A stretch of 64,000 bases of DNA from Terrimicrobium sacchariphilum. GTDB lineage: Bacteria > Verrucomicrobiota > Verrucomicrobiia > Chthoniobacterales > Terrimicrobiaceae. Where the stretch lies: positions 1,674,001-1,738,000 of the forward strand of contig NZ_BDCO01000002.1 in NCBI RefSeq assembly GCF_001613545.1. The letters are read 5' to 3'. Below, one piece after another: positions 15,911 through 62,447 of the stretch (position 1 is the first letter of the stretch; every line of letters begins with the position of its first letter). The notes below the pieces were generated by a model. That model was not told the origin of the DNA, did not search any database, and saw nothing but the letters and a program-made list of their open reading frames with translations. The position numbers and the translations under genes are program-made.

Positions 15911-15949
15911 ATAAATGTGTTGATTATATTTATATATCGATACATTTAT
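15911..15949. repeat. inverted repeat spanning the divergent promoter
   Basis: ATAAATGT (15911-15918) and its reverse complement ACATTTAT (15942-15949) bracket the -10 region and the palindrome variant in the oxidoreductase/sulfatase divergent region. The arms are 8 bp, perfect, with a 23-base interval. Confidence 0.5.
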
Positions 15950-18487: not shown

Positions 18488-19714
18488 ATGAAAAGTACGG
18501 CGGGACACCATAAAGGTGTGCCTTTTCTTCTGGCGGCGCTCTCTGCCTTGGGGCCGTTTTCGATAGACGCATATCTGCCGTCGTTTCGTGATATTGGACA
18601 TCACTTTGGGGCATCACCCTTGGTGGTGCAGCAGACGATCACGGCATATCTGCTGCCATTTGGCGCCATGACCTTATTTCATGGCGCCCTTTCGGACAGC
18701 TTCGGACGGCGGAGGGTGACACTGATCATGGTGGCCATCTTTGTGCTGGCTTCGATCGGGTGCATGTGCGCCTGGAGCATTGAGTCGTTGATTTCTTTTC
18801 GTGTACTGCAGGGCCTGAGCGCTGGAGGCGGGATGATCATCGGCCGTGCCATGGTGCGCGACTTGTTCGATGGCATCGAGGCGCAACGTTTGATGAGCCA
18901 GATCGCGGTAGTGTTTGCAATAGCGCCTGCGCTTGGCCCGATTGTCGGAGGATGGCTGCAGATGGCCGTGGGCTGGCGTGCGGTGTTTGGCTTTCTCGTG
19001 GTATTCTCGGCGCTCGTTTGGCTGGCATGCTGGAAGGCATTGCCGGAAACCCTGCCGCATGCAAATCGGCAGCCTCTGCATCCCTTGCATCTTTTGCGAG
19101 GATATTGGGGCGCTCTCAGTTCCATCCAATTCGTCACGCTCGCCGTGACATTGACCCTGAATTTCTCCGCGGTCTTCGTCTACATCGTATCCGCTCCGGC
19201 ATTTATCTTTGGCATTTTGAGGCGGCAGGAGACGGAGTTTTTCTGGCTTTTTGGTCCGATCACGGCGGGAATGATGCTGGGGACGGCTTTGGCGGGCAGA
19301 CTCGCGGGCAGGCTTTCCTCCGCGAGGATATTGACGTCGGCCTACGGCCTCATGTTTGCCTCGGCGCTGGGTAATTTTGTGTTCAGCCTCACACACCCGC
19401 CATCCTTGCCCTGGAGCATTGTGCCGCTCTTCTTTTATGTTGTCGGGAGCGCCATGGGGATGCCGACCCTGACGATTATGGCCCTGGATATTTTCCCGCA
19501 CCGCAGGGGGCTGGCATCTTCATGCCAGGGATTTATCCAGACATCCGGGAATACGATTATCACCGCTGTGGCTGCTCCCGCGCTGTGGAGTTCCGCGCTT
19601 TACCTGTCCATGGGAATGCTTGGGATTTTCCTGACGAGCGGGGTGGCGCTGCTGGCGTATTCCTTATTGAGTCGAGCCTCCCGGAAAAGACTTCCGATCA
19701 GAACGCCCGGTTAG
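18488..19714 (+). CDS. Bcr/CflA-family MFS transporter
   Basis: The 408-residue protein has 12 predicted membrane helices. The opening LGPFSIDAYLPSF and the loop GALSDSFGRRRV (MFS motif A) are characteristic of the Bcr/CflA drug-resistance branch, and GGWLQMAVGWRAVF is the typical helix 5-6 region. Known relatives export bicyclomycin, chloramphenicol or cysteine; the substrate here is not known. The gene starts 27 bases after the epimerase and its last 17 bases overlap the end of the convergent AraC-family gene. Confidence 0.88.
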   Translation: MKSTAGHHKGVPFLLAALSALGPFSIDAYLPSFRDIGHHFGASPLVVQQTITAYLLPFGAMTLFHGALSDSFGRRRVTLIMVAIFVLASIGCMCAWSIESLISFRVLQGLSAGGGMIIGRAMVRDLFDGIEAQRLMSQIAVVFAIAPALGPIVGGWLQMAVGWRAVFGFLVVFSALVWLACWKALPETLPHANRQPLHPLHLLRGYWGALSSIQFVTLAVTLTLNFSAVFVYIVSAPAFIFGILRRQETEFFWLFGPITAGMMLGTALAGRLAGRLSSARILTSAYGLMFASALGNFVFSLTHPPSLPWSIVPLFFYVVGSAMGMPTLTIMALDIFPHRRGLASSCQGFIQTSGNTIITAVAAPALWSSALYLSMGMLGIFLTSGVALLAYSLLSRASRKRLPIRTPG

Positions 19715-20609
19715 GGGCGGTCTCCCCCAGCGATCGGGTCATCTTTCGGCGATAGGATGACGCGCTGACTCCAAAGTGACGTTGGAAGCTGGTGGCGAAC
19801 TGCTTCGGTTCCGGCCATCCCACAGCGACGCCGATATCTCCGATGCGAGTTGACCCCGAAAGGAGCAGGGTGGCAGCGCGTTCCGCCCGGATGCGGGAGA
19901 GAAATTTCATCGGGCTGCTTCCGGTTTCGGTCCGGAAAAGGCGCACCAGATAGCTTGGGTTGAGTCGGAGCTGAGCGGCGAGCCTGTCCAGAGTCCAGTC
20001 CTCCGCGATACCCGAGTGTATGAGATCAAGGGCCTGTCGAATCGAGGGGTGCATTTCCAATGGCTTCACAACCGGCCGGTCCTTCGTTTGGACAAGTGTC
20101 TGGAGAAAGTCAAAAATCAGTAATAATCTTGCGAGGAGCGCTGTACGAGATCTCTTGCCCGTATAAGCTCGCTCCAGGTCGGCGAGCAACGGGTGGAGGG
20201 TCTTGAGACGACGAGGGGAAGCCCGGAGTTTTTGTACTGGAGCGAAGCCTCGTGGGCTGGAAATACCGAGGAGCTGGCCGAAAGAAGGGTCATCTTTCAT
20301 CCAGCCGAGTTCCTTTTCCATCAATACCGGGGAGAGTAGGCAATTGAAGACCTCGAAATGTCTGCAATCACAGTATCCATGCCATGCCCCCGGTGGAATG
20401 ATATGGATGTCCCCAGCGGAGCTTCGCTCCTCCCCATCGACGACGAAATGACGCGCATTTCCGTGGAGAATGAATGCGATCTCCAGAAAATTATGGTCAT
20501 GAGCTACCACGTCCTGCTGTCCGCGCAAATGGTTCAGAAAGAGCCAGGAGGAAGGCTGGACCTCGAGGTGATTGACCGGCCGGTCGGAGGATAAGGTGAC
20601 GCCATTCAT
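19698..20609 (-). CDS. AraC-family regulator with cupin sensor domain
   Basis: The 303-residue protein has an N-terminal cupin-like sugar-sensing half (HNFLEIAFILHGNARHFV, IHIIPPGAWHGY) and two C-terminal helix-turn-helix motifs: WTLDRLAAQLRLNPSYLVRL (about 220-240) and IGDIGVAVGWPEPKQFATSF (about 268-288). This is the layout of AraC/RhaS/MsmR activators. It is divergent from a GH78 rhamnosidase with 86 bases between the starts, so it probably activates that gene in response to a sugar such as rhamnose; the ligand is inferred from context only. Confidence 0.9.
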   Translation of the reverse strand: MNGVTLSSDRPVNHLEVQPSSWLFLNHLRGQQDVVAHDHNFLEIAFILHGNARHFVVDGEERSSAGDIHIIPPGAWHGYCDCRHFEVFNCLLSPVLMEKELGWMKDDPSFGQLLGISSPRGFAPVQKLRASPRRLKTLHPLLADLERAYTGKRSRTALLARLLLIFDFLQTLVQTKDRPVVKPLEMHPSIRQALDLIHSGIAEDWTLDRLAAQLRLNPSYLVRLFRTETGSSPMKFLSRIRAERAATLLLSGSTRIGDIGVAVGWPEPKQFATSFQRHFGVSASSYRRKMTRSLGETAPNRAF

Positions 20610-30655: not shown

Positions 30656-30683
30656 TTTCAAGAAAAATATATCGCTATAAAAT
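30656..30683 (+). promoter_or_regulatory. promoter with operator variant (site 2), beta-helix gene at 30841
   Basis: TTTCAA (30656-30661) and TAAAAT (30678-30683) are 16 bases apart. The decamer ATATCGCTAT (30669-30678) ends on the first T of the -10, the same register as the exact palindromes. The predicted leader is about 150 bases. The site could also affect the divergent cassette. Confidence 0.55.
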
Positions 30684-33442: not shown

Positions 33443-34564
33443 TCAGTGTCCCCGGGAAGCCCGTTTTTGCTTCCTGTCGCCGGGGTGAACGGACTGAGCG
33501 CTGCTGCGACTGACCAGATGCGGCCGGAGGGTGATATGTCGGTGGGTGGATTTTGAAGATGAGCTGGCGAGGTTTTGCTCCACAAGGTGAATGACCTCAC
33601 GAGTGAACTGATTCAGATCGATTTGTACGGTTGTGAGCGGAGGGTCTGTAAAGTCGCATAATGGCGACTCGCTCGAGTACGTGACGAGACTCACATCCCC
33701 TGGTACGCGGATGTTTCTCTCGCGGAAAGCCCTTAGAGCTCCTAGTGCGCCCGTCCAGCTCAAGCAGAATACCGCGGTGAAAGGGAGCACAGGCATGGCA
33801 TCCAGGCGCTGGCTGAGGCGCTCATAGGCACTGGAGATCGAGTCAGGACCATGCTGGACGGAACAGTCAATCACCAGGTCTCGGAGATCCGAAATGCCCG
33901 CTTTCAGCATTTCACTCCGCCAGCCTTGCAGGCGGGCCGTAGCCGACGGGTTATAGGGTTCGCTCAACATTGCGGCGATGTGCGTATGGCCCAGGTCCAG
34001 CAGGTGCCGGGTAGCCAGGCGGCCGACTTCGCTGTCGTCGACCCATACGGCACTGGCTTTCGCGGACTTGGGCCTTTCCCGAAGAAACACGACAGGCTTT
34101 CGTGCGCTGTTTACTGCGTGAATCTGGTCAGATGTGATGCCCTGTGTGCCAATAAGCAGCCCTGCGTCGTACTGTTTCAGGATCTGCTCGATATCGAGGT
34201 CGTGGATGTCGCTATAGATGTGGACTCCGAAGCCAAACTGCTCACGATGGCCCATTTCGTAGAGCCGGTTGGTGATTTGTTCGAAGTCCGGCGAGTACCA
34301 GAGGGGTCTAATAAGAGCCACGCGAAATCTGGAGCGTGCGCTGGTTTGTGCCACCACGAGCCGCTTTTTACCGTGCGGCTTCTCGATGAGGCCCTGCAGT
34401 CTCAGCCTCTCCAGTGCATGAGTGATCGTGATCTGGGAGCATTCATATGCCGCCTTCAGCTCTTCCATGGTCGGGAGGAGCTCCCCTGCACTCATTGACT
34501 GGATGTGATCACTGAGGAGCTTGGAGACATGAAAATGCTTGGTATGGGGAACTCGACGCGCCAT
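33443..34564 (-). CDS. GntR/LacI chimeric regulator (AraR-type)
   Basis: Residues 1-72 form a GntR winged helix (LLPTMEELKAAYECSQITIT, then LERLRLQGLIEKPHGKKRLVV). From about residue 78 the protein is a LacI-type periplasmic-binding sensor (FRVALIRPLWYSPDFEQI, HLLDLGHTHIAAML, DVSLVTYSSESPLCDFTDPP). This fusion is the architecture of AraR and related sugar-responsive repressors. The 373-residue gene is divergent from the secreted GH2 operon, and the region between holds an exact ATATCGATAT plus a degenerate copy close to its own promoter. It is the best candidate in the window for the protein that binds that palindrome; this has not been shown. Confidence 0.85.
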   Translation of the reverse strand: MARRVPHTKHFHVSKLLSDHIQSMSAGELLPTMEELKAAYECSQITITHALERLRLQGLIEKPHGKKRLVVAQTSARSRFRVALIRPLWYSPDFEQITNRLYEMGHREQFGFGVHIYSDIHDLDIEQILKQYDAGLLIGTQGITSDQIHAVNSARKPVVFLRERPKSAKASAVWVDDSEVGRLATRHLLDLGHTHIAAMLSEPYNPSATARLQGWRSEMLKAGISDLRDLVIDCSVQHGPDSISSAYERLSQRLDAMPVLPFTAVFCLSWTGALGALRAFRERNIRVPGDVSLVTYSSESPLCDFTDPPLTTVQIDLNQFTREVIHLVEQNLASSSSKSTHRHITLRPHLVSRSSAQSVHPGDRKQKRASRGH

Positions 34565-34600
34565 TGGCTATAAAGGGGATCATTGCACAACGATGTCGGT

Positions 34601-34635
34601 AATGCATTTAAAATGTGTCGATATGAAAATGCATT
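34601..34635. repeat. inverted repeat upstream of the chimeric regulator
   Basis: AATGCATTT (34601-34609) and AAATGCATT (34627-34635) are perfect 9-bp arms with a 17-base interval that contains the degenerate operator at 34615-34624. It lies 37-71 bases before the regulator start. Confidence 0.55.
34615..34624 (-). promoter_or_regulatory. degenerate operator (site 10), possible autoregulation
   Basis: On the minus strand this reads ATATCGACAC, matching the first eight positions of the galT site (ATATCGACAT). It is 90 bases, centre to centre, from the exact palindrome at 34705. It is flanked by the inverted repeat 34601-34635. Confidence 0.4.
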
Positions 34636-34690
34636 GGGCGGCGGAGGCGTGCCGAGGGAGTTTTAAGATATTTCGTTTTCAATTGTTGAT

Positions 34691-34719
34691 TTCAACTTGC
34701 GAAAATATCGATATAATAT
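34691..34719 (+). promoter_or_regulatory. promoter with exact operator (site 3), GH2 operon
   Basis: TTCAAC (34691-34696), 17-base spacer and TAATAT (34714-34719). The perfect palindrome ATATCGATAT occupies 34705-34714 and its last T begins the -10. A bound protein would block RNA polymerase. Confidence 0.7.
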
Positions 34720-34820
34720 AATTTGCGCGAACTGCTTGATTGAAGTCTCCCCTCGGACTGGCCGACAGGCTTTCAACGACGATGGAGTGCCTTCAGTTTT
34801 GTCACCGATTTCCTGTGCTG

Positions 34821-37439
34821 ATGAAAAAGATATTGATGAATTTCCTGACGATGGTTGCGACTTTACTCGTTGGCTTTCCAATGCTCGGGGGTGCGGTGGA
34901 GGCTGCGGAAACGCAGGCCCGCGAGCGCTCCAGCTTCAATGCCGACTGGCGATTCATCAAGGGTGATCCTGAAGAGGTGGGAGATACATTCCGACTGCCC
35001 GAGATCAATAAATGGCTCGCGAGCCAGCGGTCGGAGTACGAGGTCGGAAAGACAGCGTTGCGCCCGGAGGGTAATCTCGGTGCCGCAGTGAGCTATGTAG
35101 CGCCGGGCTTTGATGATGGCTCCTGGCGGAAGCTTAATCTGCCTCACGATTGGGGCATCGAGGGGCCTTTCAATCAGGAGTATGATGGCGAAACGGGGAA
35201 GCTGCCTTGGTGGGGGGTGGCATGGTACCGCAAACATTTCGAAGTGCCTGCCGCTGACAGGGGGAGTCAGCTCTACCTGGATTTTGACGGAGCGATGTCT
35301 TATGCGCTCGTGTGGGTGAATGGGAAGTTTGCTGGCGGATGGCCGTATGGATACAGCTCGTTTCGCGTCGACATCACCCCGTATGTGAATTTTGGAGGAG
35401 AGAATGTCGTGGCTGTCCGGCTGGATAATCCCCCGAATTCCTCGCGGTGGTATCCTGGCGGCGGGATCTACCGCAATGTCTGGTTGGTGCGCACCTCTCC
35501 CGTGCATGTCGCGCACTGGGGGACCCAGGTGACGACACCCCAGATCAGCGCTGCAGTTGGCAAAGTCGAGTTGAAAACCTCGGTTGTGAACAACACCGAA
35601 GCTCCAGCCTCGGTGTCTCTGAAAAATTCCATTTACGTACTGGATCGTGCTGGAGCCAAAGTCGGCAAAGCGGTGGCATCGGGCGCCACTCCGCCCCTTT
35701 CTATTGCACCGGGCGAGAGGAAAGAGATCCCTGCGCAGCTTGCAGTTCCCCGGCCTGACCTCTGGAGTCCCGAGACGCCTGCCCGGTATGTGGTGGTGAC
35801 CGATGTCCTCCAGGGAAACAATGTGGTCGACCAGTACGAGACGCCTCTCGGCTTCCGGACGATTGCATATCATGCAAAGGACGGATTCATGCTCAATGGC
35901 AAGCCTTACAAGTTTCAGGGGGTGTGCAATCATCACGATCTCGGCGCCTTGGGAACAGCTGTCAACTATCGGGCGCTGGAGCGTCAGGTGGAGTTGCTCA
36001 AGGAGATGGGTGGCAATGCCATTCGCACGAGTCACAATCCTCCGGCGCCGGAACTGCTGGAGATCTGTGATCGGCTCGGCATGCTCGTGATGGTAGAGGC
36101 CTTTGACTGTTGGGCCTCGGGCAAGAAACCAAACGATTATGGTCGTCTATTCAAGGAATGGCATGAGGCGGATCTTCGAGCGATGGTGCGCCGCGACCGG
36201 AATCATCCCAGCGTGGTAATCTGGAGCACCGGCAACGAAATCGCCGAGCAGAATGGTCCCTGGCTTTCTGAGAAACTGACCAGGATCGTGCACGAGGAGG
36301 ACAGCACACGGCCTGTATCGGTCGGGTGCAACTGGCTCGAAGCCGGATTCAATGGTTTTCAGAAGTCCGTAGATATTTTTGGCTTCAACTATAAGCCGGG
36401 CGTCTATGAGCGCTTCCACAACGAAAACCCGGATATCCCGATCTATGGGTCGGAAACCGCGTCGACGATCAGCACGCGAGGGGAATATTTCTTCCCGTTG
36501 GATCACGGTGGCCAGTCCGATTTTCAGATGAGCTCATATGACTTGTATTTCCCGGGATGGGCAACGACTCCCGATACGGAGTTCAAGGCTCAGGACAAGT
36601 ATCCATACGTGATGGGTGAGTTTGTCTGGACCGGATTTGACTATCTGGGTGAGCCGACTCCGTACAACAAGGATACGACGAATCTCCTGAACATGGCCGA
36701 TCCAGAGGCGAAGGCCAAGCTCAAGGAGGAACTCGATCGTCTTGGAAAGATTCAGGTTCCGTCGCGGAGTTCCTACTTTGGCATCCTCGATCTCGCGGGC
36801 TTCAAGAAGGATCGCTTCTACATCTATCAGGCAAAGTGGCGGCCCGATTTTCCGATGGCACATATCCTCCCGCACTGGAACTGGCCCGATCGCATCGGAC
36901 AAGTCACGCCCGTGCACGTCTATACATCTGGAGACGAGGCGGAACTTTTCCTCAATGGAAAGTCGCTCGGCCGCAAAAAGAAGGAAGCGGGCCAGTATCG
37001 CCTCCGCTGGGACGATGTGAAGTACGAACCCGGTGAGCTCAGGGTCGTGGCGTACAAAAATGGCCGCCAGTGGGCGGAGGATAAGGTCGTCACGACTGGC
37101 GAGGCTTCACAGCTCGCTCTTTCTCCCGACCGGGCCCGGATCTCGGCCGATGGCAAGGATCTTTCTTTCGTGACCGTAAAAGTGGAGGACGGAAAGGGAC
37201 GAGTCGTGCCCCGTTCGGGGAATGAGGTGAAGTTTGAGATTTCCGGTCCGGGTGAACTGGATGCCGTCGACAATGGTAACCCGGTCAGCCACGAGTCCTT
37301 TCAGGCAAGCGAGCGAAAGGCGTTCAATGGTCTGGCTTTGGCCATTGTTCGATCCAAACCCGGAGAAAAAGGAGAGATCAAGTTGAAAGCCGTATCTGCC
37401 GGCCTCGTCGCAGCCGAAACAACCATTAGCGCGGAGTAA
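34821..37439 (+). CDS. GH2 beta-galactosidase-like enzyme, secreted
   Basis: ATG 34821 is chosen because it opens a signal peptide (MKKILMNFLTMVATLLVGF..., cleavage near residue 29). The 872-residue protein has the GH2 order: jelly-roll (DWRFIKGD to about 225), immunoglobulin-like domain, TIM barrel, and a C-terminal bacterial beta-galactosidase tail (YTSGDEAELFLNGKSLGRKK) plus an invasin-like domain. Glu473 in WSTGNEIAEQ is the expected acid/base and Glu545 in YGSETASTISTRGEY the expected nucleophile. It probably removes beta-galactosyl residues outside the cytoplasm. It is 7 bases before the next gene and under the exact operator at 34705. Confidence 0.88.
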   Translation: MKKILMNFLTMVATLLVGFPMLGGAVEAAETQARERSSFNADWRFIKGDPEEVGDTFRLPEINKWLASQRSEYEVGKTALRPEGNLGAAVSYVAPGFDDGSWRKLNLPHDWGIEGPFNQEYDGETGKLPWWGVAWYRKHFEVPAADRGSQLYLDFDGAMSYALVWVNGKFAGGWPYGYSSFRVDITPYVNFGGENVVAVRLDNPPNSSRWYPGGGIYRNVWLVRTSPVHVAHWGTQVTTPQISAAVGKVELKTSVVNNTEAPASVSLKNSIYVLDRAGAKVGKAVASGATPPLSIAPGERKEIPAQLAVPRPDLWSPETPARYVVVTDVLQGNNVVDQYETPLGFRTIAYHAKDGFMLNGKPYKFQGVCNHHDLGALGTAVNYRALERQVELLKEMGGNAIRTSHNPPAPELLEICDRLGMLVMVEAFDCWASGKKPNDYGRLFKEWHEADLRAMVRRDRNHPSVVIWSTGNEIAEQNGPWLSEKLTRIVHEEDSTRPVSVGCNWLEAGFNGFQKSVDIFGFNYKPGVYERFHNENPDIPIYGSETASTISTRGEYFFPLDHGGQSDFQMSSYDLYFPGWATTPDTEFKAQDKYPYVMGEFVWTGFDYLGEPTPYNKDTTNLLNMADPEAKAKLKEELDRLGKIQVPSRSSYFGILDLAGFKKDRFYIYQAKWRPDFPMAHILPHWNWPDRIGQVTPVHVYTSGDEAELFLNGKSLGRKKKEAGQYRLRWDDVKYEPGELRVVAYKNGRQWAEDKVVTTGEASQLALSPDRARISADGKDLSFVTVKVEDGKGRVVPRSGNEVKFEISGPGELDAVDNGNPVSHESFQASERKAFNGLALAIVRSKPGEKGEIKLKAVSAGLVAAETTISAE

Positions 37440-46763: not shown

Positions 46764-48509
46764 TCAGGCAAAGATGATGTTAAGGACGAGGACGAGAGCC
46801 AGCACGATGATACCGACAAAAGCAGGGCGAGTGTACCAGACTTCGCCTTCTGATTTGGGCTTGGGCGTGAGAGAGTAGACGAGGCCGGCAAGCTCCTCGT
46901 TGGTTTTCGTGCGAGCCGTCACCAGAGAGATGCCGATAGTGAGGACAAAGCAGACCGTCCACGCCACAATGGCAACCCAGAAGTTCTGCCCCATTTCGCT
47001 TTGAAAGTGAAAGACCGGCGTGATCCAGCCTCCCTTGATGCCGGGCACGGCATTGTGAGAGAGTGACAGACCGTGAAAGACTACCGCGGAAAGCGTGCCG
47101 GCCACCAACCCCCAGAAGGCGCCGTGTCCCGTAGCCCGGCGCCAGAACATACCGAGCAGGAAGGTCGCGAAAAGCGGCGCGTTCACGAATCCAAACACCA
47201 GTTGGAGCATGTCCATGATGTTATTGAAGTGCGACGCCATGAAAGCAGTGCCGATGCTCAGGATGATGCCCACTATCGTCGCCACACGGCCCATCCAGAG
47301 GTAGTGTTTGTCTGATTTTCCGGGAGCGAAATAGCTTTGGTAAATGTCGTAGGTCCAGACGGTGTTGAACGCCGTCACATTCCCCGCCATTCCGGCCATG
47401 AAGGAAGCCATGAGCGCGGTGAAACCCAGGCCGAGAAGGCCGGTCGGGAAGTATTGCGCCAATAGCGCCGGGATCACCATGTTGTAATCTGGAGTGCCGT
47501 CATGAGAAACCGGAAGGAACTTGCCCCCGGATTGGTAGTGCATGGCGATGGCGATCATGCCAGGGAGGATGACCAGAAGCGGGAAGAGCATCTTCGGTAC
47601 GGCGGCGATGAGAGGAGTCCGTCGAGCTGCCGACATGGACTCGGCAGCCATGGCTCGCTGGACGACCAGGAAGTCCGTACACCAGTAGCCAAAGGAAAGG
47701 ACGAAGCCAAGGCCCATGGCCATTGCGATCCAATTGACGCCCATGGGATTTTCTGCCGCGGAACCCATGTAGTGCCAGGAATGCGTCCATGTCCCGGCGG
47801 CGAAGCCTTCATTGGTCGCCACGGGAATAAGCTTTTCCTTCAGCGCACTCCAGCCGCCGATGGCCTTTAGGGCCAGATAGACGAGCGGGGTAAACCCGAG
47901 CACGATCATAAAGAACTGGAGGACCTCGTTATAAATTGCCGAGGTCAGCCCGCCGAGAAGGATGTATACCAGCACGATCGCGGCGGAGATCCCGATACAG
48001 GTCCAGTAGTTCCAGCCGACTAGGACCTCCAGCAGCTTGGCCAGCGCATGGAGGGAAATGCCGGAGGAGAAGATGGTCATTAGCGCGAATGAGAACGCAT
48101 TGAATCCACGCGTCTTTTCGTCAAATCGCAGCTTGAGATACTCCGGCACCGAACGCGCCTTTGACCCATAGTAGAAGGGCATCATGAAGATGGCCAGGAA
48201 GACCATCGCCGGGATTGCGCCGAGCCAATAGAAATGGCTGGTCATGATGCCATACTTTGCGCCGGAAGCAGCCATTCCGATGATTTCCTGAGCTCCAAGA
48301 TTGGCGGAAAGGAAAGCCAGTCCGGTGACCCACGCCGGGATCGCGCGGCCCGACTGAAAAAACTCGCTGCTGCCCTTCATGTAGCGCTTGAGGGCGAGAC
48401 CGATGCCGATGACGAATACGAAGTACAATCCGAGGATCAGGTAATCAACCGGCGTGAGATTGATATTGATCGAGGATGCGACGGAGGAGGTGGTCGGGGA
48501 TGCGGTCAT
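46764..48509 (-). CDS. vSGLT-like sodium/sugar symporter (SSS family)
   Basis: The 581-residue protein has about 14 membrane helices. Features of the sugar-transporting SSS branch include DYLILGLYFVFVIGIGLALK, WVTGLAFLSANLGAQEIIGM, the helix with SVPEYLKLRFDEKTRGFNAF, and YWCTDFLVVQRAMAAESMSAA. This is close in pattern to the Vibrio Na+/galactose transporter. It is the first gene of the operon running to the GH2 and further genes, behind the exact operator at 48579-48588 and divergent from galT. Na+-driven galactose or galactoside uptake is the most likely role. Confidence 0.88.
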   Translation of the reverse strand: MTASPTTSSVASSININLTPVDYLILGLYFVFVIGIGLALKRYMKGSSEFFQSGRAIPAWVTGLAFLSANLGAQEIIGMAASGAKYGIMTSHFYWLGAIPAMVFLAIFMMPFYYGSKARSVPEYLKLRFDEKTRGFNAFSFALMTIFSSGISLHALAKLLEVLVGWNYWTCIGISAAIVLVYILLGGLTSAIYNEVLQFFMIVLGFTPLVYLALKAIGGWSALKEKLIPVATNEGFAAGTWTHSWHYMGSAAENPMGVNWIAMAMGLGFVLSFGYWCTDFLVVQRAMAAESMSAARRTPLIAAVPKMLFPLLVILPGMIAIAMHYQSGGKFLPVSHDGTPDYNMVIPALLAQYFPTGLLGLGFTALMASFMAGMAGNVTAFNTVWTYDIYQSYFAPGKSDKHYLWMGRVATIVGIILSIGTAFMASHFNNIMDMLQLVFGFVNAPLFATFLLGMFWRRATGHGAFWGLVAGTLSAVVFHGLSLSHNAVPGIKGGWITPVFHFQSEMGQNFWVAIVAWTVCFVLTIGISLVTARTKTNEELAGLVYSLTPKPKSEGEVWYTRPAFVGIIVLALVLVLNIIFA

Positions 48510-48573: not shown

Positions 48574-48601
48574 TTTTTATATCGATATTGCTGCATGAAA
48601 A
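48574..48601 (-). promoter_or_regulatory. promoter with exact operator (site 4), symporter-GH2 operon
   Basis: On the minus strand TTTTCA (48601-48596) and TAAAAA (48579-48574) are 16 bases apart. ATATCGATAT at 48588-48579 ends on the first T of the -10. The -35 is weak. Confidence 0.62.
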
Positions 48602-48668: not shown

Positions 48669-48695
48669 TTGGGATTTAACATATCGACATAAAAT
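48669..48695 (+). promoter_or_regulatory. promoter with operator variant (site 5), galT
   Basis: TTGGGA (48669-48674), 15-base spacer, TAAAAT (48690-48695). ATATCGACAT at 48681-48690 differs from the perfect palindrome at one position and ends on the first T of the -10. It is 102 bases, centre to centre, from the divergent site 4. Confidence 0.6.
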
Positions 48696-48755
48696 CTCGG
48701 ATCAGCTAGGTCAGCATTTCCTGAGCGCCTTTTTTTGGTTCGCAGCAATCTGGAT

Positions 48756-49778
48756 ATGAAAGCACTCTCTTCCGCTCCTCATCGACGTCTCAACGCCCTC
48801 ACGGGTGAGTGGGTCCTCGTCTCTCCACATCGTACGCAACGCCCTTGGTTGGGCCAGAAGGAGGCAGGTTCAAACGAGAAGCCTCCGACCCATGACGAGA
48901 AATGCTACCTGTGTCCGGGGAATGCGCGGATGGGAGGGGAACGGAATCCCGACTACGTCGGCCCCTTTGTTTTCAACAACGATTTTTCCGCCCTTCTGCC
49001 ACAGCAGACCGGGAGTTCGGCATCACCGGGAGAGGGCTTGTTCCGATATGAAGAGGTGGCGGGGGAATGCCGCGTGATATGCTTCTCTCCCAGGCATGAT
49101 CTGACTCTGCCCGATCTGTCGCTGCAGGAGATCCGGCAGGTGATTGATACGTGGGCCGGGCAGACCGAAGAACTCGGCAGAAAGTACCGCTGGGTTCAGA
49201 TCTTTGAAAACAAAGGTGCGATCATGGGATGTTCCAATCCCCATCCGCATGGCCAGGTGTGGGCTTCGTCGTTTATACCGAACGAACCTGCCAAGGAGGA
49301 CGTCCAGCAGCGCCGATATTATGAACGGGAGGGACGTACGCTTTTATCCGACTATGCCGAACGCGAGATGGTCGACCGGGAACGGATCGTGGTTGAGAAT
49401 GCGGACTGGCTGGCCGTTGTTCCGTACTGGGCTGTCTGGCCCTTTGAAACGTTGTTGCTCCCCAAAGTTCCCGTGCGGCGTCTTCCCGACCTTGATGAGG
49501 CCAGAAGGCTTTCGCTGGCTAAGATTCTGAAGGCGATGTTGTCGGGATACGACCAACTATTTGAAACGTCCTTTCCGTACTCCATGGGATGGCACGGTGC
49601 GCCCTACGGTGATGAGCCGGGTGAGCATTGGCACGTGCATGCCCATTTCTATCCGCCCCTGCTACGCTCCGCCTCAGTGAAGAAATTCATGGTCGGCTAT
49701 GAGTTGCTGGCAGAGGCTCAGCGCGATCTTGCGGCCGAGACGGCTGCCGCTCGATTACGCGAGGCCTGCGGGAGCTGA
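48756..49778 (+). CDS. galT: galactose-1-phosphate uridylyltransferase
   Basis: The ATG at 48756 gives a 340-residue protein of normal length. Cys50-x2-Cys53 (KCYLCPGN) is the metal-binding pair, and [10 protein letters not shown] at about 161-170 contains the HPH active site with His165 as the uridylylated nucleophile. The C-terminal [11 protein letters not shown] is the second His cluster. The enzyme converts galactose-1-phosphate and UDP-glucose to UDP-galactose and glucose-1-phosphate in the Leloir pathway. It is the strongest evidence that the locus handles galactose. galK, galE and galM are not in the window. Confidence 0.95.
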
Positions 49779-49821: not shown

Positions 49822-49849
49822 TTGACATAAAAGAATATCGATATATAAA
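49822..49849 (+). promoter_or_regulatory. promoter with exact operator (site 6), beta-helix paralogue C
   Basis: TTGACA (49822-49827), 16-base spacer, TATAAA (49844-49849); the best -35 in the set. ATATCGATAT lies at 49835-49844. The predicted transcription start coincides with the ATG at 49857, so the mRNA would be leaderless. Confidence 0.75.
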
Positions 49850-49856
49850 TTTTGCC

Positions 49857-51638
49857 ATGCTTCCATGGCGCCTCAAGTTTTGTCGCTTTGTTTCGGTTCT
49901 TTGCACTGTGGCTGGTATCCTCGGGAATATCCGGGCAGAGGCTGATATTCAGACACTGATCAGCAATGCCATCAGGCAAAAGGCCCCCGAGGTTGTAATC
50001 CCTCCCGGGGTTTACAAGGTGCAACCTGCCTCTGGTGGCCGTGTTCATTTGCAGGTTAAGGATGCGAGTAACCTGACGATCAAGGCCGAAGGAGTGACTC
50101 TCCTCTGCGGAAAGCGCACGATGGCCATGGAGTTCGTGTCCTGTAAAAACGTCCGGTTGCAAGGGCTGACGATCGACTATGAACCGCTGTGTTTCACGCA
50201 GGGGGAGGTGGTTCGTATTGCGGATGACCGTAGCTGGATCGACGTGCAGTTGGACGCTGGATACCCACGTGAACCTTTCTCTCGCATCGATCTGATTGAC
50301 CGCGTCACCCGTTTTCGGAAGAGGGGAATGCCATTTCTCTGGGGCGCCAAAGCCGAGATGGTCGGGGAATCAACGGTACGTGTGTTCCGAGACGGGATCG
50401 GCAAGGCGGCCGCTCTGGGCGATCTCGCCTCGCTCAGCACGGGACCAGATCCGGGCGGGGCTCCGCATGGTCTGACGATCACGGCCAGTTCGGACATGAC
50501 CTTTGAGGATGTGACAGTGCACTCGGCCCCAGGATTTGGGATATTCGAGAGCGCTGGACAGGGTGGCTCGACCTTTCGACGGTGCAGTGTGACGCCGGGT
50601 CCGCCCCCCACCGGTGCCACCTCGGAACGGCTGCTCAGCAGTTCATGGGATGCAATGATGACCGCTGCGGTGCGGAAAGGTCCCATTGTGGAAGATTGTC
50701 GGATCGAGAAGGCGGGTGACGACTCGTGGAGCGTTCAATCGACGGACTATCTCGTCCTGGCTGTCGATGGGACGAGGGCTATCATCGCCTCGCGTCAACC
50801 GTATGACGTGTTTCCCCAGGTCGGGGAGAGGCTTGTTACGGGATTAACTTCGCCGGAAGCGGTGGTCGCGAGTCTCCGCCCCGTAAACCTTGACCAGGTT
50901 TCCCTGGGGGCTGGCACCCGTGACAAGATCAAGGCGGCGAAGCCTTGGGAGGTTTGGGGAGTGAGTGCGAAGGTCTTTGAAGTCACGGCGAAGGATTCGT
51001 TCCCGTTTCCCGTCGGCCAGAATCTTTATAATCCGGATCGGCAGTGTAACGGCTTCGTTTTTCGCAATAATCACCTGCATAACTCTGGGCGTATTCTCAT
51101 TAAAGCTTCAGACGGAGTTATCGAAGGTAATGACATCAAGGATGGACACGCCGGCGTGACCATTGCGCCGGAATACCCCGGGGCGATTGGCGGCGTGCGC
51201 AATGTGGTCATCCGTAATAACCGCTTCGTCGGCACGGGATATTTTTGCCCAGCTCCTTGGAGTGGGCAGGCAGGATGTATTTCCCTGTCAGGCCAGGGCA
51301 GTATCGATGCACCCACTTTCCGGGACATTGTAATTGAGAAAAATTACTTCGAGGACTTTAACGGGCCGGGCATTGTAATAGTTTCCGCCGCCGGAGTTCG
51401 CATTGCCGACAACCTCTTCCGGAACGTAATGTCGGAAACGCCAAATCCCACAGGTCAGGACCTGGGAATCGATGGTGGAGCCTTGATCTGGGTGTCACGG
51501 AGTTCGGACTTAACCATCACTGGAAATCGTGTCGTTCGCCCCGGTGCCTTCTTCAGGCAGAAGGTCGTGTGGAATGAGGCGGAAAGCGACTCCGTGGCAA
51601 CACTGGAAAGCGGAATCGTGATTGAGCGGGGCGACTAA
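49857..51638 (+). CDS. secreted right-handed beta-helix protein, GH110-like (paralogue C)
   Basis: The start at 49857 is preferred because an upstream in-frame GTG-type start would put the promoter inside the gene, and because MLPWRLKFCRFVSVLCTVAG is a signal peptide (cleavage near residue 27). The 593-residue protein has VVIPPGVYKVQP, LTIDYEPLCFTQGEV (about 104-118) and many beta-helix turns. Asp265 in SSSWDAMM precedes Asp288-Asp289 (AGDDSW), the D-x22-DD pattern. It is the closest relative of paralogue B at 40249. A secreted exo-acting glycosidase is the likely role. Confidence 0.75.
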   Translation: MLPWRLKFCRFVSVLCTVAGILGNIRAEADIQTLISNAIRQKAPEVVIPPGVYKVQPASGGRVHLQVKDASNLTIKAEGVTLLCGKRTMAMEFVSCKNVRLQGLTIDYEPLCFTQGEVVRIADDRSWIDVQLDAGYPREPFSRIDLIDRVTRFRKRGMPFLWGAKAEMVGESTVRVFRDGIGKAAALGDLASLSTGPDPGGAPHGLTITASSDMTFEDVTVHSAPGFGIFESAGQGGSTFRRCSVTPGPPPTGATSERLLSSSWDAMMTAAVRKGPIVEDCRIEKAGDDSWSVQSTDYLVLAVDGTRAIIASRQPYDVFPQVGERLVTGLTSPEAVVASLRPVNLDQVSLGAGTRDKIKAAKPWEVWGVSAKVFEVTAKDSFPFPVGQNLYNPDRQCNGFVFRNNHLHNSGRILIKASDGVIEGNDIKDGHAGVTIAPEYPGAIGGVRNVVIRNNRFVGTGYFCPAPWSGQAGCISLSGQGSIDAPTFRDIVIEKNYFEDFNGPGIVIVSAAGVRIADNLFRNVMSETPNPTGQDLGIDGGALIWVSRSSDLTITGNRVVRPGAFFRQKVVWNEAESDSVATLESGIVIERGD

Positions 51639-51762: not shown

Positions 51763-51791
51763 TTGGATGAAAAATATATCGATATTAATTT
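51763..51791 (+). promoter_or_regulatory. promoter with exact operator (site 7), prepilin-like and beta-helix D
   Basis: TTGGAT (51763-51768), 17-base spacer, TAATTT (51786-51791). ATATCGATAT occupies 51776-51785 and touches the -10 directly. The predicted leader is about 28 bases. Confidence 0.65.
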
Positions 51792-54330: not shown

Positions 54331-54358
54331 TTGCAGAAAAACAATATCGATATAAAAT
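54331..54358 (+). promoter_or_regulatory. promoter with exact operator (site 8), PEP-CTERM protein gene
   Basis: TTGCAG (54331-54336), 16-base spacer, TAAAAT (54353-54358). ATATCGATAT lies at 54344-54353, ending on the first T of the -10. The leader would be about 10 bases. Confidence 0.7.
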
Positions 54359-55941: not shown

Positions 55942-57705
55942 CTAGGCCTCTGCCACAGGAACCAGGACTTTATGGGCGTCGGGAAGCGATCTCTTTCCAC
56001 AAATCTCGACAGGATCTTCCCACTGGATGCGGTCGCAGTTGGAGGAGTCGAGCCATCCGTGGCCGTCATTCTTGCGGGGAGGATAGAGATGGGTGAGTTC
56101 CACGCTGTTCTTGCGGAAGGTCAATCCCGAGACGGAATAGATCGCGACGAGTGGATGAGTGCCAAACACTCGGAAGACATTCTCCTCGATCGTGATATTT
56201 CGGTTGTACCTGCTGGCGACCCTGGAAGCTTCTGCGATGCCAGACCGGACCTCGATGCAGGCGTCTCCCCAGACGCCATAGTTGCAATTATCGAACGTAT
56301 TGTTCCGGATCACGACATCACGCACCCCGGCTTGTTCAAACCAATGATTGGCGTCTCCCTCAAAGAGCAGGGCGGCGCCTGGCGTATGAAAGGTGTTTCC
56401 CGTGATGCGCATCTTCCCGCGAGACCCCAGGAGGATGCCGCGGGCGCGGTTGTTTCGAATCACGCAATTCTCGATGATGACCTCCGCGGTATTGGCATCG
56501 GCATCCGCCACCACGGTACGTGGTAGAACGCTCGCCGGGAGCATCTCCGTTGTGGTGACGATGGAGTACTCCTTGTTGAGATATTCCACGCTCTCGACGA
56601 CGCACTCGCCGAAGCCTTCAAGGGTGCGATGATCGGAGAACTCCAGCCGCGTGCCTGCTTCGATAAATGTGAGGCCGGCTTGCTGGGGATGAACCAGACG
56701 CACCTCGAGTTTGTTCGGACCGAGGATGCGGGTCACCTGACCATACAGGCCGTGGATGTTTGATGCATCGTCCATCTGGTTTTCGAAAATACAGTCGCGG
56801 ATCTCGATGCGGCCGGTGCAGTTGGTGAAGTGGGTGGCATCAGCGGTCGCGCTGATCACGCGGGACTCGTTCGGCGGGGCAACGATGAGATGATCCAGGG
56901 AAATATTGGCCGACCGCTGCGCGATCACTCCCATGCCTCCGACATGATGGATGCGGACATTGCGCAGCCGGATATCGCTGCTCTTGGAAATGACAAATCC
57001 GGGATCATTGCGGTGGGCTGCGGCAAAGACCAGCGTGTCTCCAGGGCTGGCATTCACCCCCGGCACTTGTATTCTTACCTGACGCGGCCCGATGCTCTCA
57101 GCTGCGATACCCGACTGCACGCCGTATTTGTCATATACCATGTAGGCGGTCTCGCGGCGCTCCGGGTCATAGGCCAGCAAATGACCATAGGGGTAGAGTA
57201 TTTCTCCGCTCTTTACCGTCGTCGGGACGGACGGATGCCGGATGTCGGCGACGAAGACGAGCACGCCGTTGCGAATGTCGAAGGGATAATCCTCTGGTAT
57301 CGCCAGATCTACGCTATCCTCCCGCACGGCGAGGATACGGCCTTCCGAATGAAAGGGGCGGGTATAGTCGATACTAAGATTCTCGATGCGCAGGTCGCGA
57401 CACTCCTCGACCAGAAAAGGCGTCATCGGCCCGTGGAAGATAAACTGGGCGCCGCGGCCATCGATGCGGAAATGGTGCTTGCCGCGGAGCAGGAAGGCGA
57501 CGCGTTTCAATCCCTCATCATTGTTGCTGATGAAGGCATATTTCTCGAATGCCCGATCCGGCCAGAAGTGATACGTGCCACCCTCGAATGCAAGCGCGGA
57601 CGCATTTGTGTCCCGGCAAGCCGTCAGCGCCGCCCGCAATGCGGGGATTGCGTCTTTTTCCGAGTTGGGTTCGATCCCGAATCGGGCTGCTTCGATAAGT
57701 GGCAT
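55942..57705 (-). CDS. GH110 alpha-galactosidase (alpha-1,3-galactosidase type), cytoplasmic
   Basis: The 587-residue protein has no signal peptide. It is a right-handed beta-helix with LSIDYTRPFHSEGRI (about 110-124), ATADATHFTNCTGRIEI and ENQMDDASNIHG. Asp289, Asp312 and Asp313 sit 23 and 24 residues apart, the spacing of the catalytic Asp set of GH110 exo-alpha-galactosidases, which cleave terminal Gal-alpha-1,3-Gal. The H-F-x-N-C and N-Q-M-D-D strings are typical of that family. It has its own promoter and exact operator. The lack of an export signal implies an imported disaccharide or short oligosaccharide as substrate. Confidence 0.85.
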   Translation of the reverse strand: MPLIEAARFGIEPNSEKDAIPALRAALTACRDTNASALAFEGGTYHFWPDRAFEKYAFISNNDEGLKRVAFLLRGKHHFRIDGRGAQFIFHGPMTPFLVEECRDLRIENLSIDYTRPFHSEGRILAVREDSVDLAIPEDYPFDIRNGVLVFVADIRHPSVPTTVKSGEILYPYGHLLAYDPERRETAYMVYDKYGVQSGIAAESIGPRQVRIQVPGVNASPGDTLVFAAAHRNDPGFVISKSSDIRLRNVRIHHVGGMGVIAQRSANISLDHLIVAPPNESRVISATADATHFTNCTGRIEIRDCIFENQMDDASNIHGLYGQVTRILGPNKLEVRLVHPQQAGLTFIEAGTRLEFSDHRTLEGFGECVVESVEYLNKEYSIVTTTEMLPASVLPRTVVADADANTAEVIIENCVIRNNRARGILLGSRGKMRITGNTFHTPGAALLFEGDANHWFEQAGVRDVVIRNNTFDNCNYGVWGDACIEVRSGIAEASRVASRYNRNITIEENVFRVFGTHPLVAIYSVSGLTFRKNSVELTHLYPPRKNDGHGWLDSSNCDRIQWEDPVEICGKRSLPDAHKVLVPVAEA

Positions 57706-57720
57706 AATAGCGAGTAAGGT

Positions 57721-57749
57721 ATATTAATATATCGATATGGAAAGGGAAA
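57721..57749 (-). promoter_or_regulatory. promoter with exact operator (site 9), GH110 gene
   Basis: On the minus strand TTTCCC (57749-57744) and TAATAT (57726-57721) are 17 bases apart. ATATCGATAT lies at 57738-57729, here 2 bases before the -10 rather than touching it. The leader would be about 10 bases. Confidence 0.55.
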
Positions 57750-57891
57750 ATGTTTTAGCCTGCCAGGGCTGGGCATGCGAGTGGGAGGCAAGGTTTACAA
57801 AGTATATACAGGGAATTTGTGTTCGGTGGTGGCGGTGAAGAAGAAAAGCGCTTGATCTTGTGCGACCAGCAGAGGCAGACCAGAGGTGTTC

Positions 57892-58425
57892 ATGAGCCGT
57901 TATTTCCGGATCTTCCATCGCCGTGTTCTCCCGTTTCTGTTTCCCTTGATCGCCTTGACCGCGCTGACCGGGATGATCTACCGCGTCGGACGAGCATGGT
58001 TCGGAATGGATCGAACGACAGGTGATCTCGTTCTGAACATTCACACGGGTGGGTGGATGGGCGACGGGGTATCGCCCTTTTATGTTTTGTTGGTCGGATT
58101 TTCTCTTCTCGCGGCGCTGCTCACGGGCGGGGCGTATCTTGTCAGAAAAGGCGGAGGAGGCTGGTTGCGGCGGAGCCACCGGCTGCTTGGCTTGGTCTTC
58201 CTGCTTCCCTTGCTCGTAACGGCAGGCACGGGGATTCTTTTTGAGGCGGGTGAGACGTGGCTTCACTTCCCCGAGAGCACTTCCAAACTCCTGATGACGC
58301 TGCATGAAGGTCGCTGGCTGGGCAAGGGTGGACGCGTCTATTATGTCCTCGTGACCGGCAGCGCGCTGCTGGGAGTGGGCGTGATCGGCCTGGCTCTCTG
58401 GAGATCGCGCAAGAAGGCAAACTAG
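57892..58425 (+). CDS. PepSY-TM-like membrane protein
   Basis: The ATG at 57892 has AGAGG seven bases upstream and gives 177 residues with four hydrophobic segments. The first follows MSRYFRIFHRRVLPFLFPL and the third is in RRSHRLLGLVFLLPLLVTAG, which resembles the helix pair of PepSY-associated TM proteins. No PepSY domain or redox motif is present. Function is unknown. It lies between the galactose locus and the two-component cluster and shows no operator. Confidence 0.7.
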   Translation: MSRYFRIFHRRVLPFLFPLIALTALTGMIYRVGRAWFGMDRTTGDLVLNIHTGGWMGDGVSPFYVLLVGFSLLAALLTGGAYLVRKGGGGWLRRSHRLLGLVFLLPLLVTAGTGILFEAGETWLHFPESTSKLLMTLHEGRWLGKGGRVYYVLVTGSALLGVGVIGLALWRSRKKAN

Positions 58426-58580
58426 GAGTATTTGGGGTCGAGCAATCGTACGGTCGGGATTTCGTACGGCGGTCGGCCGGTTTGTTGAAGTCATAAGTTG
58501 CTTTCCATCAATGGAGAGCGTGTGGCGTTCGGGGTTGGCATACGGCATGAGACAGGGCGAGCCTCGATACTCAAACAGCC

Positions 58581-58844: not shown

Positions 58845-59255
58845 ATGAACGATCTGATGAAAACCGACTTCTCCATAGCTGTGGTGGATGACGACGAGTC
58901 TGTCCGGGAAAGCCTGGAAAGCTTGCTCAAGTCCCTGGGCTTTCATGTTTCCACCTTCGAGAGTGCGGAAGCATTCCTGGTCGCAGGAGAGTTGCGGGCG
59001 GCGGGATGTGTCATTCTGGACGTCCGGCTTGGCAGTATGAGCGGGCTGGATTTGCATCGGACCATGTTGACGATGGATGGCACGCCCCCGGTCGTGTTTA
59101 TCACGGCGCATGGTAATGAGGTATTGAGGCAAAAGGTCATGGCCGATGGTGCCATTGACTGTCTCTTCAAGCCCTTCAGCGAGGAAAAGCTTATCGCGGC
59201 GGTGGAAAAGGCCGCAGCCGCCTGGGAAGTCAGTCGCGAGATCGCTCCGCGATAA
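58845..59255 (+). CDS. receiver-only response regulator
   Basis: The 136-residue protein is a single REC domain: acidic pocket in VVDDDE (Asp15-17), phosphoacceptor Asp59 in VILDVRLG, and Lys109 in LFKPF. It has no output domain, so it can act as a phosphate sink or a relay partner (CheY/FixJ-receiver type). It is followed by the NtrC-type gene after 13 bases, in a unit that ends with a FixJ-type regulator. Confidence 0.88.
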
Positions 59256-59268
59256 TTCTGTGAACTTT

Positions 59269-60666
59269 ATGAGCGTACCGATCCCTCCCATTTGTGTTGT
59301 CGATGACGATGCCGGCATACGTGAGGCGGTGGAGGGCCTTTTACGTGCCGAGGGATTTGAGGTGGAATTGTTTGCCTCGGCCCAGCGTTTTGCGGCCCGC
59401 GCCCGGCAGGCGCCGCTGTCCTGCGTCGTCCTTGACGTGGAACTCCCCGGCCTGAGTGGCTTGGATTTGCAGCGTGAACTCGCCAGCGCCGGACTCGATG
59501 TGCCGATTATTTTCCTAACCGGTCATGGGAGTATCCCCATGTCGGTACAGGCGATGAAGGCGGGAGCCATTGAGTTTTTGACCAAGCCGTTCGATGCCGA
59601 CGATCTGCTGGGAGCGATCCAGCAGGCAGTGTCCGGCACGCACTCGGTGGAGCTGGAGACGAAAAATGGGACCACAGATGTGATCGGTGAGAGCCGGGTG
59701 ATTCGCCAGACCCTCTCCCGCATTCAAATGGTGGCGCCCACGGATTCCACAGTCTTGATCCTCGGTGAAACCGGGACGGGCAAGGAGGTGCTGGCCAAGG
59801 AGATTCACAGATGCAGCCGGCGAGCAGAGAAGCCTCTCATCCGGGTGAATTGCGCATCGATCCCCAAGGATCTCTATGAGAGTGAGTTCTTTGGCCACGT
59901 GAAAGGTGCGTTCACTGGTGCTTTCAAGGATCGGGTTGGCCGGTTTGAGGCGGCGGATGGCGGGACGCTCTTTCTCGACGAAATCGGTGAGATTCCGCTC
60001 GATCTCCAGAGCAAACTCCTGCGGGCCTTGCAGGAGCGGCAGTTTGAGCGGGTTGGGGATGATCGGACGAAACGTGCCGACGTGCGGATCATCGCGGCGA
60101 CCAACCGAGACCTCGGCGCAGAGGTCGCAGCAGGGCGTTTTCGCGAGGATCTATACTATCGCCTGAATGTCTTTCCCCTTGAGATTGCCCCCTTGCGAGA
60201 TCGCATGGAGGATATTCCGTTGCTCGCCCGCCACTTTATGGAGCTGGCGGCAAAGGAGATGAACTGCCCTCGGGCGCGGTTGACCCCGGCGGGGCTCGCC
60301 ATGCTCCAGAACTATCACTGGCCGGGGAACATCCGGGAACTGCGAAATGTTATCGAGCGGGCTGTCATCATGGCTCAGGGCGGTGCGGCGGAGTTTGATC
60401 TGCCGATCACGATTACCGAGCCTCTCCCGGTGAAATCCTCCGGCGAGGAGCCTTCTGGTACCGAGCGGGATTTTCTCACCGAGCCAGAGATGTTGAAAAG
60501 GGAGCGAGACAATCTCCTCGTGGTTCTGGAAAAGACCGGCTGGAAGATCAAGGGTGCTGATGGAGCGGCGGAACTGCTCGGCATCAAGCCGACCACGCTG
60601 CTCTCCCGCATCAAGAAAATGGGCTTGCGCCGCAGTGAGCCGGCTGCGAGGAGGGTGCCCGCGTGA
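59269..60666 (+). CDS. NtrC-type sigma-54-dependent response regulator
   Basis: From ATG 59269 the protein has 465 residues: REC domain (Asp56, Lys106), AAA+ domain with Walker A GETGTGKE (166-173), GAFTGA (213-218) for sigma-54 contact and Walker B LFLDEIG (234-240), and a C-terminal Fis-like HTH ([19 protein letters not shown]). It activates sigma-54 promoters when phosphorylated. The intact GAFTGA says it uses sigma-54. It overlaps the kinase gene by four bases (GTGA), which suggests coupling. Confidence 0.92.
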
Positions 60667-62447
60667 CAGCCTATTCGACCACCAGCGATGATACATCGCT
60701 CTCCCGCGAACAAGCGGATTTTTCGAAGTTCAAGCTGGAGCGCTCATGGCGGCACCGGTGTCCTGTGGCTCTGCGATACCTTATTGCGCTCGTGCTTGCT
60801 GGCCTTGCCTGGGTGACAACCTTTGGTCTGCGTCACCTGATTGATGCCCCGTCATTCCAGACGCCGTTTTTTGTCTGTGCCATTGTGCTGAGCAGTTGGA
60901 TCGGCGGCGCAGGTCCAGGCATTGTGGCGACCATTTTTTCGATATTTGCGATCGAGTTCTCGTTCACAGAACCGCGCTACACGCTGACTTTTACGTTTTC
61001 CGAGGTGCCGAAATTCACTGTTTTTTTCCTGGCTGGAGCATTTATCAGTCTGCTGGCTCGTCGTCAGCGAAGGGACGAGGAGGCTCTGCTGGTGGCTCGG
61101 GAGAGCCTGGAGGAAAAGGTGCGCGATCGTACGACGGATCTGGAGAGAGCGAATAGAAAGCTGACAGAAGAGGTGGCCGAGAGAACCCGCGCGGAACGAT
61201 CTCTGCAGCGACTTAATCGAGCCTGGCGGGTGAGGGGACTGTTCAACCGCTCGATCGCTCGCAGCGCTGATGAGCCGGAACTCGTCGCCAGAGTGTGTCA
61301 GACACTGGTAAAAAGCAGTGGATACCGACTCGCCTGGGTCGCCGAGGTGGACCAAAATCGTGTCGTCGCGGCGGCTCATGCTGCCGACGATCGCTTTGAG
61401 CGTGTGGCCGAGGCTTGGGCTGCTGATGGTCCTGGATACCCCATGGCGACCCGTGTGATCGAGTCCGGTCTGGCATTTTCCTGGGCGCAGCGAGACCGGA
61501 AGCGGGAGGAGCCGGGGGACCCTTGGTCGGAATCCAATGAGGTGAAGGCCGTGCTCGCGTTGCCGTTGATTTCCGACGACGCCATCCTCGGTGCGCTCTT
61601 GCTATACTCGGGCGATGGGGATGCCTTTGACAAACAGGAGACAGATTTGCTGCAGCAGGCCGCCAATGACGTGGCGCAGGGCATTCTGCTCTTCCGTGCT
61701 CGAGCGGCACGCGCCTCCGCGGAGACTGCCCTCAAGAAGACACGCGCTGAACTGGAGCGCGTTTCGCGAGTCACCACGATGGGGGAATTGACTGCTTCCA
61801 TCGCGCACGAGATCAATCAGCCCCTGGCGGCTCTGGTTACCAATGCCAATGCGTGTCTCCGTTGGCTGGACCGCAACCCGCCCGAGATGGATGAGGCACG
61901 CGAGGCTGCGCGCAGGATCATCCGAGACGGCAAGCGTGGCAGCGACGTGCTGGCCCGCATCAGGGCCATGCTGAAGAAGCAGGATCCGATCCGCGAAGAT
62001 CTTGCGATCAATGAGGTAATCGACGAGATCCTGGCGCTGGCCCGCACGGGGCTGGACGGAGTGCGGCTGGTTAAGGACTACTCCGCCCGATTGCCTCTCG
62101 TTCATGGCGACAGGGTGCAGCTTCAGCAAGTCATCCTGAATCTTGTTCTTAATAGCCTCGATGCGATGAAAGTCACACCTGACCGCGCCCCGGCTTTGAG
62201 CATCAGCACGGGCGTCACGGTGGGCGGAGATATCGAGGTGGCCATCTGCGACAACGGCATCGGCCTCACGGAGGAGCAGGTGGAAAAGATATTTACGACA
62301 TTTTTTACCACCAAGACCGAGGGGCTGGGGATGGGGCTGTCGATTTGCCGTTCAATCATCGAGCAGCATGGGGGCCGACTTTGGGCGGTGCCCAATGGTG
62401 ACACGGGCGTGACTTTCCGGTTTACTCTGCCGGTCGCACTCCTTTGA
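60663..62447 (+). CDS. membrane sensor histidine kinase with DUF4118-like and GAF domains
   Basis: The 594-residue protein starts with GTG at 60663. Three to four membrane helices (about 36-132) resemble the KdpD-like DUF4118 region; a coiled coil (about 138-185), a GAF-type domain (about 190-345), a DHp helix with His382 ([13 protein letters not shown]) and a HATPase domain ([22 protein letters not shown]) follow. The [10 protein letters not shown] box marks a kinase branch that is common in Proteobacteria. It is flanked by NtrC- and FixJ-type regulators, so it may feed both. The signal is unknown. Confidence 0.9.

Follow-up and report, generated by a model that had tools for sequence, protein, structure and literature searches.

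A divergent promoter region carrying two candidate copies of a short palindrome, ATATCGATAT, separates a regulator gene from a GH2 glycosidase gene in the window (the whole 64-kb stretch of DNA analysed), and further copies stand before a symporter gene, galT and genes for beta-helix and secreted proteins (Table 1). Orientations of the sites, like some of the gene starts, come from reading the sequence: the real start of the GH2 gene is likely near 34822, with a signal peptide after it, and that of galT is likely the ATG at 48757. Positions 1-29000, adjoining the galactose locus, hold a rhamnose-related set of genes (GH106, alpha-L-rhamnosidase, FGGY kinase, sulfatase, LacI, AraC).

Table 1. 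Regulator gene, candidate operators and candidate target genes in the window
Feature	Position	Strand	Remarks
Weaker candidate site ATATCGATAC	15934..15943		Between FAD oxidoreductase (-) and sulfatase (+)
Candidate site ATATCGCTAT	30669..30678		Before LamG/PKD gene at 30841
Regulator gene	33443..34564	-	373 aa; GntR winged-helix N-terminus and LacI-type sugar-binding body; Pfam
Proposed regulator-proximal operator ATATCGACAC	34615..34624	-	2 mismatches; starts 60 bp before the regulator start codon
Exact ATATCGATAT, proposed GH2-promoter operator	34705..34714		Upstream member of the 90-bp pair
GH2 glycosidase, beta-galactosidase-like	34740..37439	+	Pfam
SSF sodium/solute symporter	46764..48509	-	Proposed target; Pfam/NCBIfam
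Exact palindrome	48579..48588		Promoter signature toward the symporter (-)
One-mismatch copy ATATCGACAT	48681..48690		Before galT; 102 bp from 48579
galT, galactose-1-phosphate uridylyltransferase	48735..49778	+	TIGR00209, E=1.8e-150
Exact palindrome	49835..49844		Within TTGACA-N16-TATAAA, before the beta-helix gene
Exact palindrome	51776..51785		Before pseudopilin-like (SBP_bac_10/GspG-type) gene
Exact palindrome	54344..54353		Before secreted-protein gene at 54375
Exact palindrome	57729..57738		24 bp before GLAA-B/beta-helix (GH110-type) gene 55942-57705(-)

The regulator and the palindrome

In the regulator protein, Pfam assigns PF00392 (GntR) to residues 14-65 and PF13377 (Peripla_BP_3) to residues 186-355, with an additional PF00532 match in the body. 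No LacI helix-turn-helix (PF00356) was found at the N-terminus, where GntR is the sole Pfam domain, and assignment to the LacI family proper was rejected on this ground. The predicted structure (pLDDT 83) consists of three helices at 9-56 followed by an alternating body, and comparison of this model places the body among LacI-family structures. The protein is a chimera of a GntR helix-turn-helix and a LacI body with AraR-type architecture, and the AraR domain order claimed in the sequence-only reading is borne out. The positions at which AraR and FadR carry the conserved contact residues Glu-Arg-Arg (helix-turn-helix positions 27, 38 and 42; PMC4494728) are occupied here by Met33, Gln44 and Thr48 (numbering of PMC4494728, Table 1), and in the two close paralogs by Ile/Val, Gln and Thr. 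These paralogs, with 59% and 54% identity, are found among 23 matches of LacI or GntR-LacI type to the regulator in the home genome.

The palindrome is concentrated in the window. Twelve copies with at most one mismatch are present where 1.0 would be expected, a count reached in none of 100 shuffles. Nine exact copies are present in the 4.75-Mb genome, where the reversed control pattern does not occur; six of the nine lie in the window as against 0.12 expected (Poisson P ~4e-9). One-mismatch sites are not usable on their own, because most of the 131 found genome-wide are expected by chance. Across 13 candidate sites the conserved symmetry spans 10 bp only, and the consensus lacks GT/AC arms. 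Outside the window, one exact copy precedes, by about 200 bp, a gene pair for a GH35 beta-galactosidase and a rhamnosidase (L067), another lies with two near-copies in a cluster that includes a PEP-CTERM protein gene (L066), and the third falls in a GC-rich stretch resembling coding sequence. The L066 copies, one exact and two with one mismatch, fall within 2.1 kb (L066:8502-10607) at a distance of 820 kb from the window, and this cluster is possibly a second target of the regulator or of a paralog. Nothing relevant to the exact motif was present in the literature among the matches listed.

The placement of the copies differs between the home genome and its relatives. The sequence-only reading had suggested looking for co-occurrence of regulator and motif in related genomes, and had named genomes with the motif and without the regulator as a refuting case. 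None of 58 relatives, 213 order-level and 387 phylum-level genomes yielded a homolog of the regulator above 40% identity, and a scan of named genomes gave one remote match (23%). The 10-mer is present in relatives; in three regulator-less genomes (G029, G045 and G001) all 20 copies examined lie inside ORFs, so the motif does not look regulon-like there and the core claim survives at the level of sequence. At home, five of the nine exact copies lie outside any mechanical ORF (Fisher P 1e-3 against the relatives' copies), and eight of nine do so (P 2e-6) once likelier gene starts, namely signal-peptide or pilin-like starts, replace the mechanical ones and ORF 57724-58548, which is doubtful, is left out. 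Neither same-genus genome has galT at E<=1e-40, and literature searches revealed no regulon of this type described for the lineage.

A site pair kept at 90 bp

The absence of any homolog above 40% from the relatives and the order- and phylum-level genomes searched led cross-species footprinting to be abandoned and a paralog to be used in its place, so that the promoter footprint is based on one paralog pair. The 59% paralog (L068) lies 380 kb from the regulator among genes for glutamine synthetase, an NMT1-type ABC transporter and an efflux system, with no galactose genes. In front of the regulator, the exact site at 34705 and the degenerate minus-strand site at 34615 are offset by exactly 90 bp, as was originally noted, and the 59% paralog carries the same arrangement: the pairs lie at -150/-60 and -141/-51 from the respective start codons, the -51 site reading ATATCGATAA and being equivalent to the 34615 site. 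The operators of the two promoters are identical at 17 of 20 bases, and the spacers between the paired sites match at 23 of 80 positions, where about 20 are expected from composition. Relative to the start codon the two pairs are shifted by 9 bp. When the upstream regions of all 23 related regulator genes were scanned, only these two had a site pair; the 54% paralog has a single two-mismatch site. Likewise, a search allowing at most three mismatches places pairs of ATATCGATAT at a 90-bp spacing twice in the genome, at these same two genes. In 57 relatives there is no such pair with up to two mismatches, and the four found with three mismatches are all crossed by an open frame.

Since the 90-bp distance has been kept exactly while the DNA between the sites has been randomised, the spacing itself appears to matter, which would be expected of cooperative or looped binding. 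The upstream neighbour of the 59% paralog is a MarR-like gene in the same direction, so the pair there most likely serves that regulator gene alone, which supports the autoregulation proposed earlier. The non-galactose neighbourhood of this paralog further indicates that the association of the sites follows the regulator and not galactose genes. The pair at 48579 and 48681 is, as previously stated, 102 bp apart, which differs from 90 bp by about one helical turn. In-vivo helical repeats of 11.1-11.6 bp have been fitted for lac loops (PMC1762422); at these values the two spacings are near 8 and 9 turns, and a repeat of 10.5 bp makes them non-integral.

The degenerate 34615 site had also been described as lying inside a 9-bp inverted repeat. 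This repeat, AATGCATTT (34601-34609) and AAATGCATT (34627-34635), is present around the site. Its arms, however, each contain the self-palindrome AATGCATT, so that it is equally a direct repeat, with the two self-palindromes 27 bp apart on either side of the operator candidate. Its centre (34618) does not coincide exactly with that of the site (34619.5), and it has no counterpart in the promoter of the 59% paralog. For these three reasons, the repeat was rejected as part of the operator.

Promoter geometry, proposed repression and other candidate readers

Two hexamers mark the sites when these are oriented to their target gene: one resembling TTGACA tends to start 12-16 bases ahead of the palindrome (P=6e-4), and one resembling TATAAT starts where the palindrome ends (P<2e-4). 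With the sites reversed, neither hexamer gives a signal (P ~0.6). A general scan for the sigma-70 consensus showed no enrichment, and the position-specific test alone gave the signal. The clearest overlap with a promoter is at 49835, where the palindrome occupies the spacer. Here (49835-49860) and at L066:8490-8530 so little separates the putative -10 from the start codon that transcripts would be near-leaderless. The signature at 34705 points to GH2, and therefore the regulator's own site would be the degenerate one at 34615, with 34705 as an auxiliary site.

A protein bound in a promoter spacer would exclude RNA polymerase, which makes repression the simplest reading. A dimer of the regulator would bind ATATCGATAT in the spacer and at the start of the -10 and block the polymerase. 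Its targets in the window would be GH2, the symporter, galT and the genes for beta-helix/GH110-type and secreted proteins, and elsewhere in the genome they may include the GH35 beta-galactosidase gene pair and the PEP-CTERM-gene cluster. At the regulator's own promoter and between the symporter and galT genes, the paired sites, some 8-9 turns from each other, would permit cooperative, possibly looped, repression. Because the targets include galT, the symporter, GH2, GLAA-B/GH110-type and GH35 genes, the inducer is likely galactose or a galactoside, and a galactose-derived sugar in the LacI-type pocket would release the regulator. The regulator very probably binds ATATCGATAT before its own gene and before genes for galactose use and galactan breakdown, and the candidate sites at its own promoter and in the promoter spacers of sugar genes are those that an autoregulated local repressor would have. 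We put at roughly 0.78 the probability that the protein encoded at 33443-34564 represses galactoside use locally and in response to sugar, acting through this palindrome, and regulates itself. The sequence-only reading had gone further and suggested that the protein may be the master regulator; the local role stands at sequence level, but 'master' does not, as galK has no site upstream and was dropped as a regulon member.

Other readers of the palindrome have to be considered. The base-contact positions of the helix-turn-helix (Ser43, Gln44, Thr46, Thr48 and Gly65) are identical in the regulator and both close paralogs, and the site pair recurs at the 59% paralog, so the galactose sites could be read mainly by one of these paralogs (C2:1325701 or C2:211520), or jointly by all three proteins. 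Yet of the three genes only the one at 33443 belongs to the galactose locus, where the divergent promoter region beside it holds an exact site, and the neighbours of both paralogs are non-galactose genes, which makes this arrangement unlikely. Even less probable is that the GntR/LacI neighbour is incidental and that the palindrome is read by an unrelated regulator, be it the LacI protein at 121-1242, the AraC protein at 19698-20609, the two-component regulators at 59146-63073 or one encoded outside the window. Such regulators are indeed present, and LacI-family operators typically have a central CG (PMC4052901), but no copy of ATATCGATAT is found at the promoters of the LacI, AraC or two-component genes themselves, the 10-bp conserved symmetry is short against the 16-22 bp of LacI operators (PMC4052901), and the 90-bp pairs track the GntR/LacI regulator family.

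The fixed position of the sites relative to the -10 and their common A-rich 3' flank would also suit a promoter element of an alternative sigma factor, with ATATCGATATAAAAT no operator at all. This is very improbable, given that the core is perfectly palindromic, that spaced pairs recur at regulator genes and that the hexamers upstream lean toward TTGACA, the pattern of the housekeeping sigma factor. Repression by the local GntR/LacI regulator is thus the preferred reading, and as a regulon prediction it is solid but fairly ordinary; it links a galactan-use locus to a DNA motif, a predicted reader of that motif and a predicted regulon.

Regulator sub-groups and known systems

More distant homologs of the regulator have other palindromes. 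Just upstream of homologs with 36-40% identity (L070, L071 and, imperfectly, L082) stands TTGACAT-N12-ATGTCAA, which is probably the operator of this sub-group. Upstream of 29-32% homologs, TAGTCAGACTA palindromes precede the regulator gene (L083, with two copies, and L085) and are a candidate sub-group-specific operator. Two species of the genus have orthologs of another GntR-LacI gene (L013 and L035) with a shared inverted repeat, TATTGAA..TTCAATA, just upstream, likely the operator of that regulator; GTATCGATAT, upstream of L013, was uninformative as an operator since the whole stretch is conserved with L035. Each sub-group thus seems to have its own operator palindrome. A broader proposal can be put forward tentatively: the regulator and its paralogs may form a GntR/LacI group that lacks the Glu-Arg-Arg triad, uses a 10-bp palindrome free of GT/AC and maintains an autoregulatory loop dependent on the fixed 90-bp spacing, with an own palindrome at the regulator promoter of each sub-group. 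The 59% paralog, with its same pair and diverged spacer, is a natural setting in which selection on operator spacing can be tested directly, and it also exemplifies rewired DNA recognition in the GntR type.

Among characterised regulators, AraR of Bacillus subtilis shares the GntR/LacI chimera domain order (PMC4494728), sugar-utilisation targets and several palindromic operators, one of them at the regulator gene. AraR binds paired, phased operators cooperatively with looping (PMC4218819), and the candidate sites here are likewise paired. The differences include the spacing, which is 90/102 bp here. The AraR operator, At(T/A)tGTaCGTAcaa(A/T)T (PMC4218819), is of the ATTTGTACGTACAAAT type with GT..AC arms, whereas ATATCGATAT, the proposed operator here, is without them; correspondingly, Met33, Gln44 and Thr48 stand in place of the AraR triad. 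The likeness to AraR operators pointed out at the outset is therefore superficial, the core here being 10 bp, and identity as AraR proper was rejected with both triad and arms missing. The AraR body matches that of the regulator at E 1.4e-9, behind many LacI-family chains, and is not its nearest sequence match. The AraR effector is arabinose; the targets here suggest galactose or galactosides. AraR is a functional analogue only.

Local regulators of the LacI/GalR family (LacI, RbsR, AscG) resemble the regulator in their sugar-binding body, local control of sugar genes and central CG; 72% of LacI-family transcription factors are autoregulated (PMC4052901). They differ in having a LacI helix-turn-helix and an operator of 16-22 bp (PMC4052901), where the regulator has a GntR winged helix and a 10-bp core. 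BioR, a GntR-type protein with the operator TTATMKATAA (PMC4494728), has a GntR-type head like the regulator, and its palindrome too is short, AT-rich and free of GT..AC arms, but it carries a FadR-type C-terminal domain and has other targets, so that the likeness implies no homology of the effector domains.
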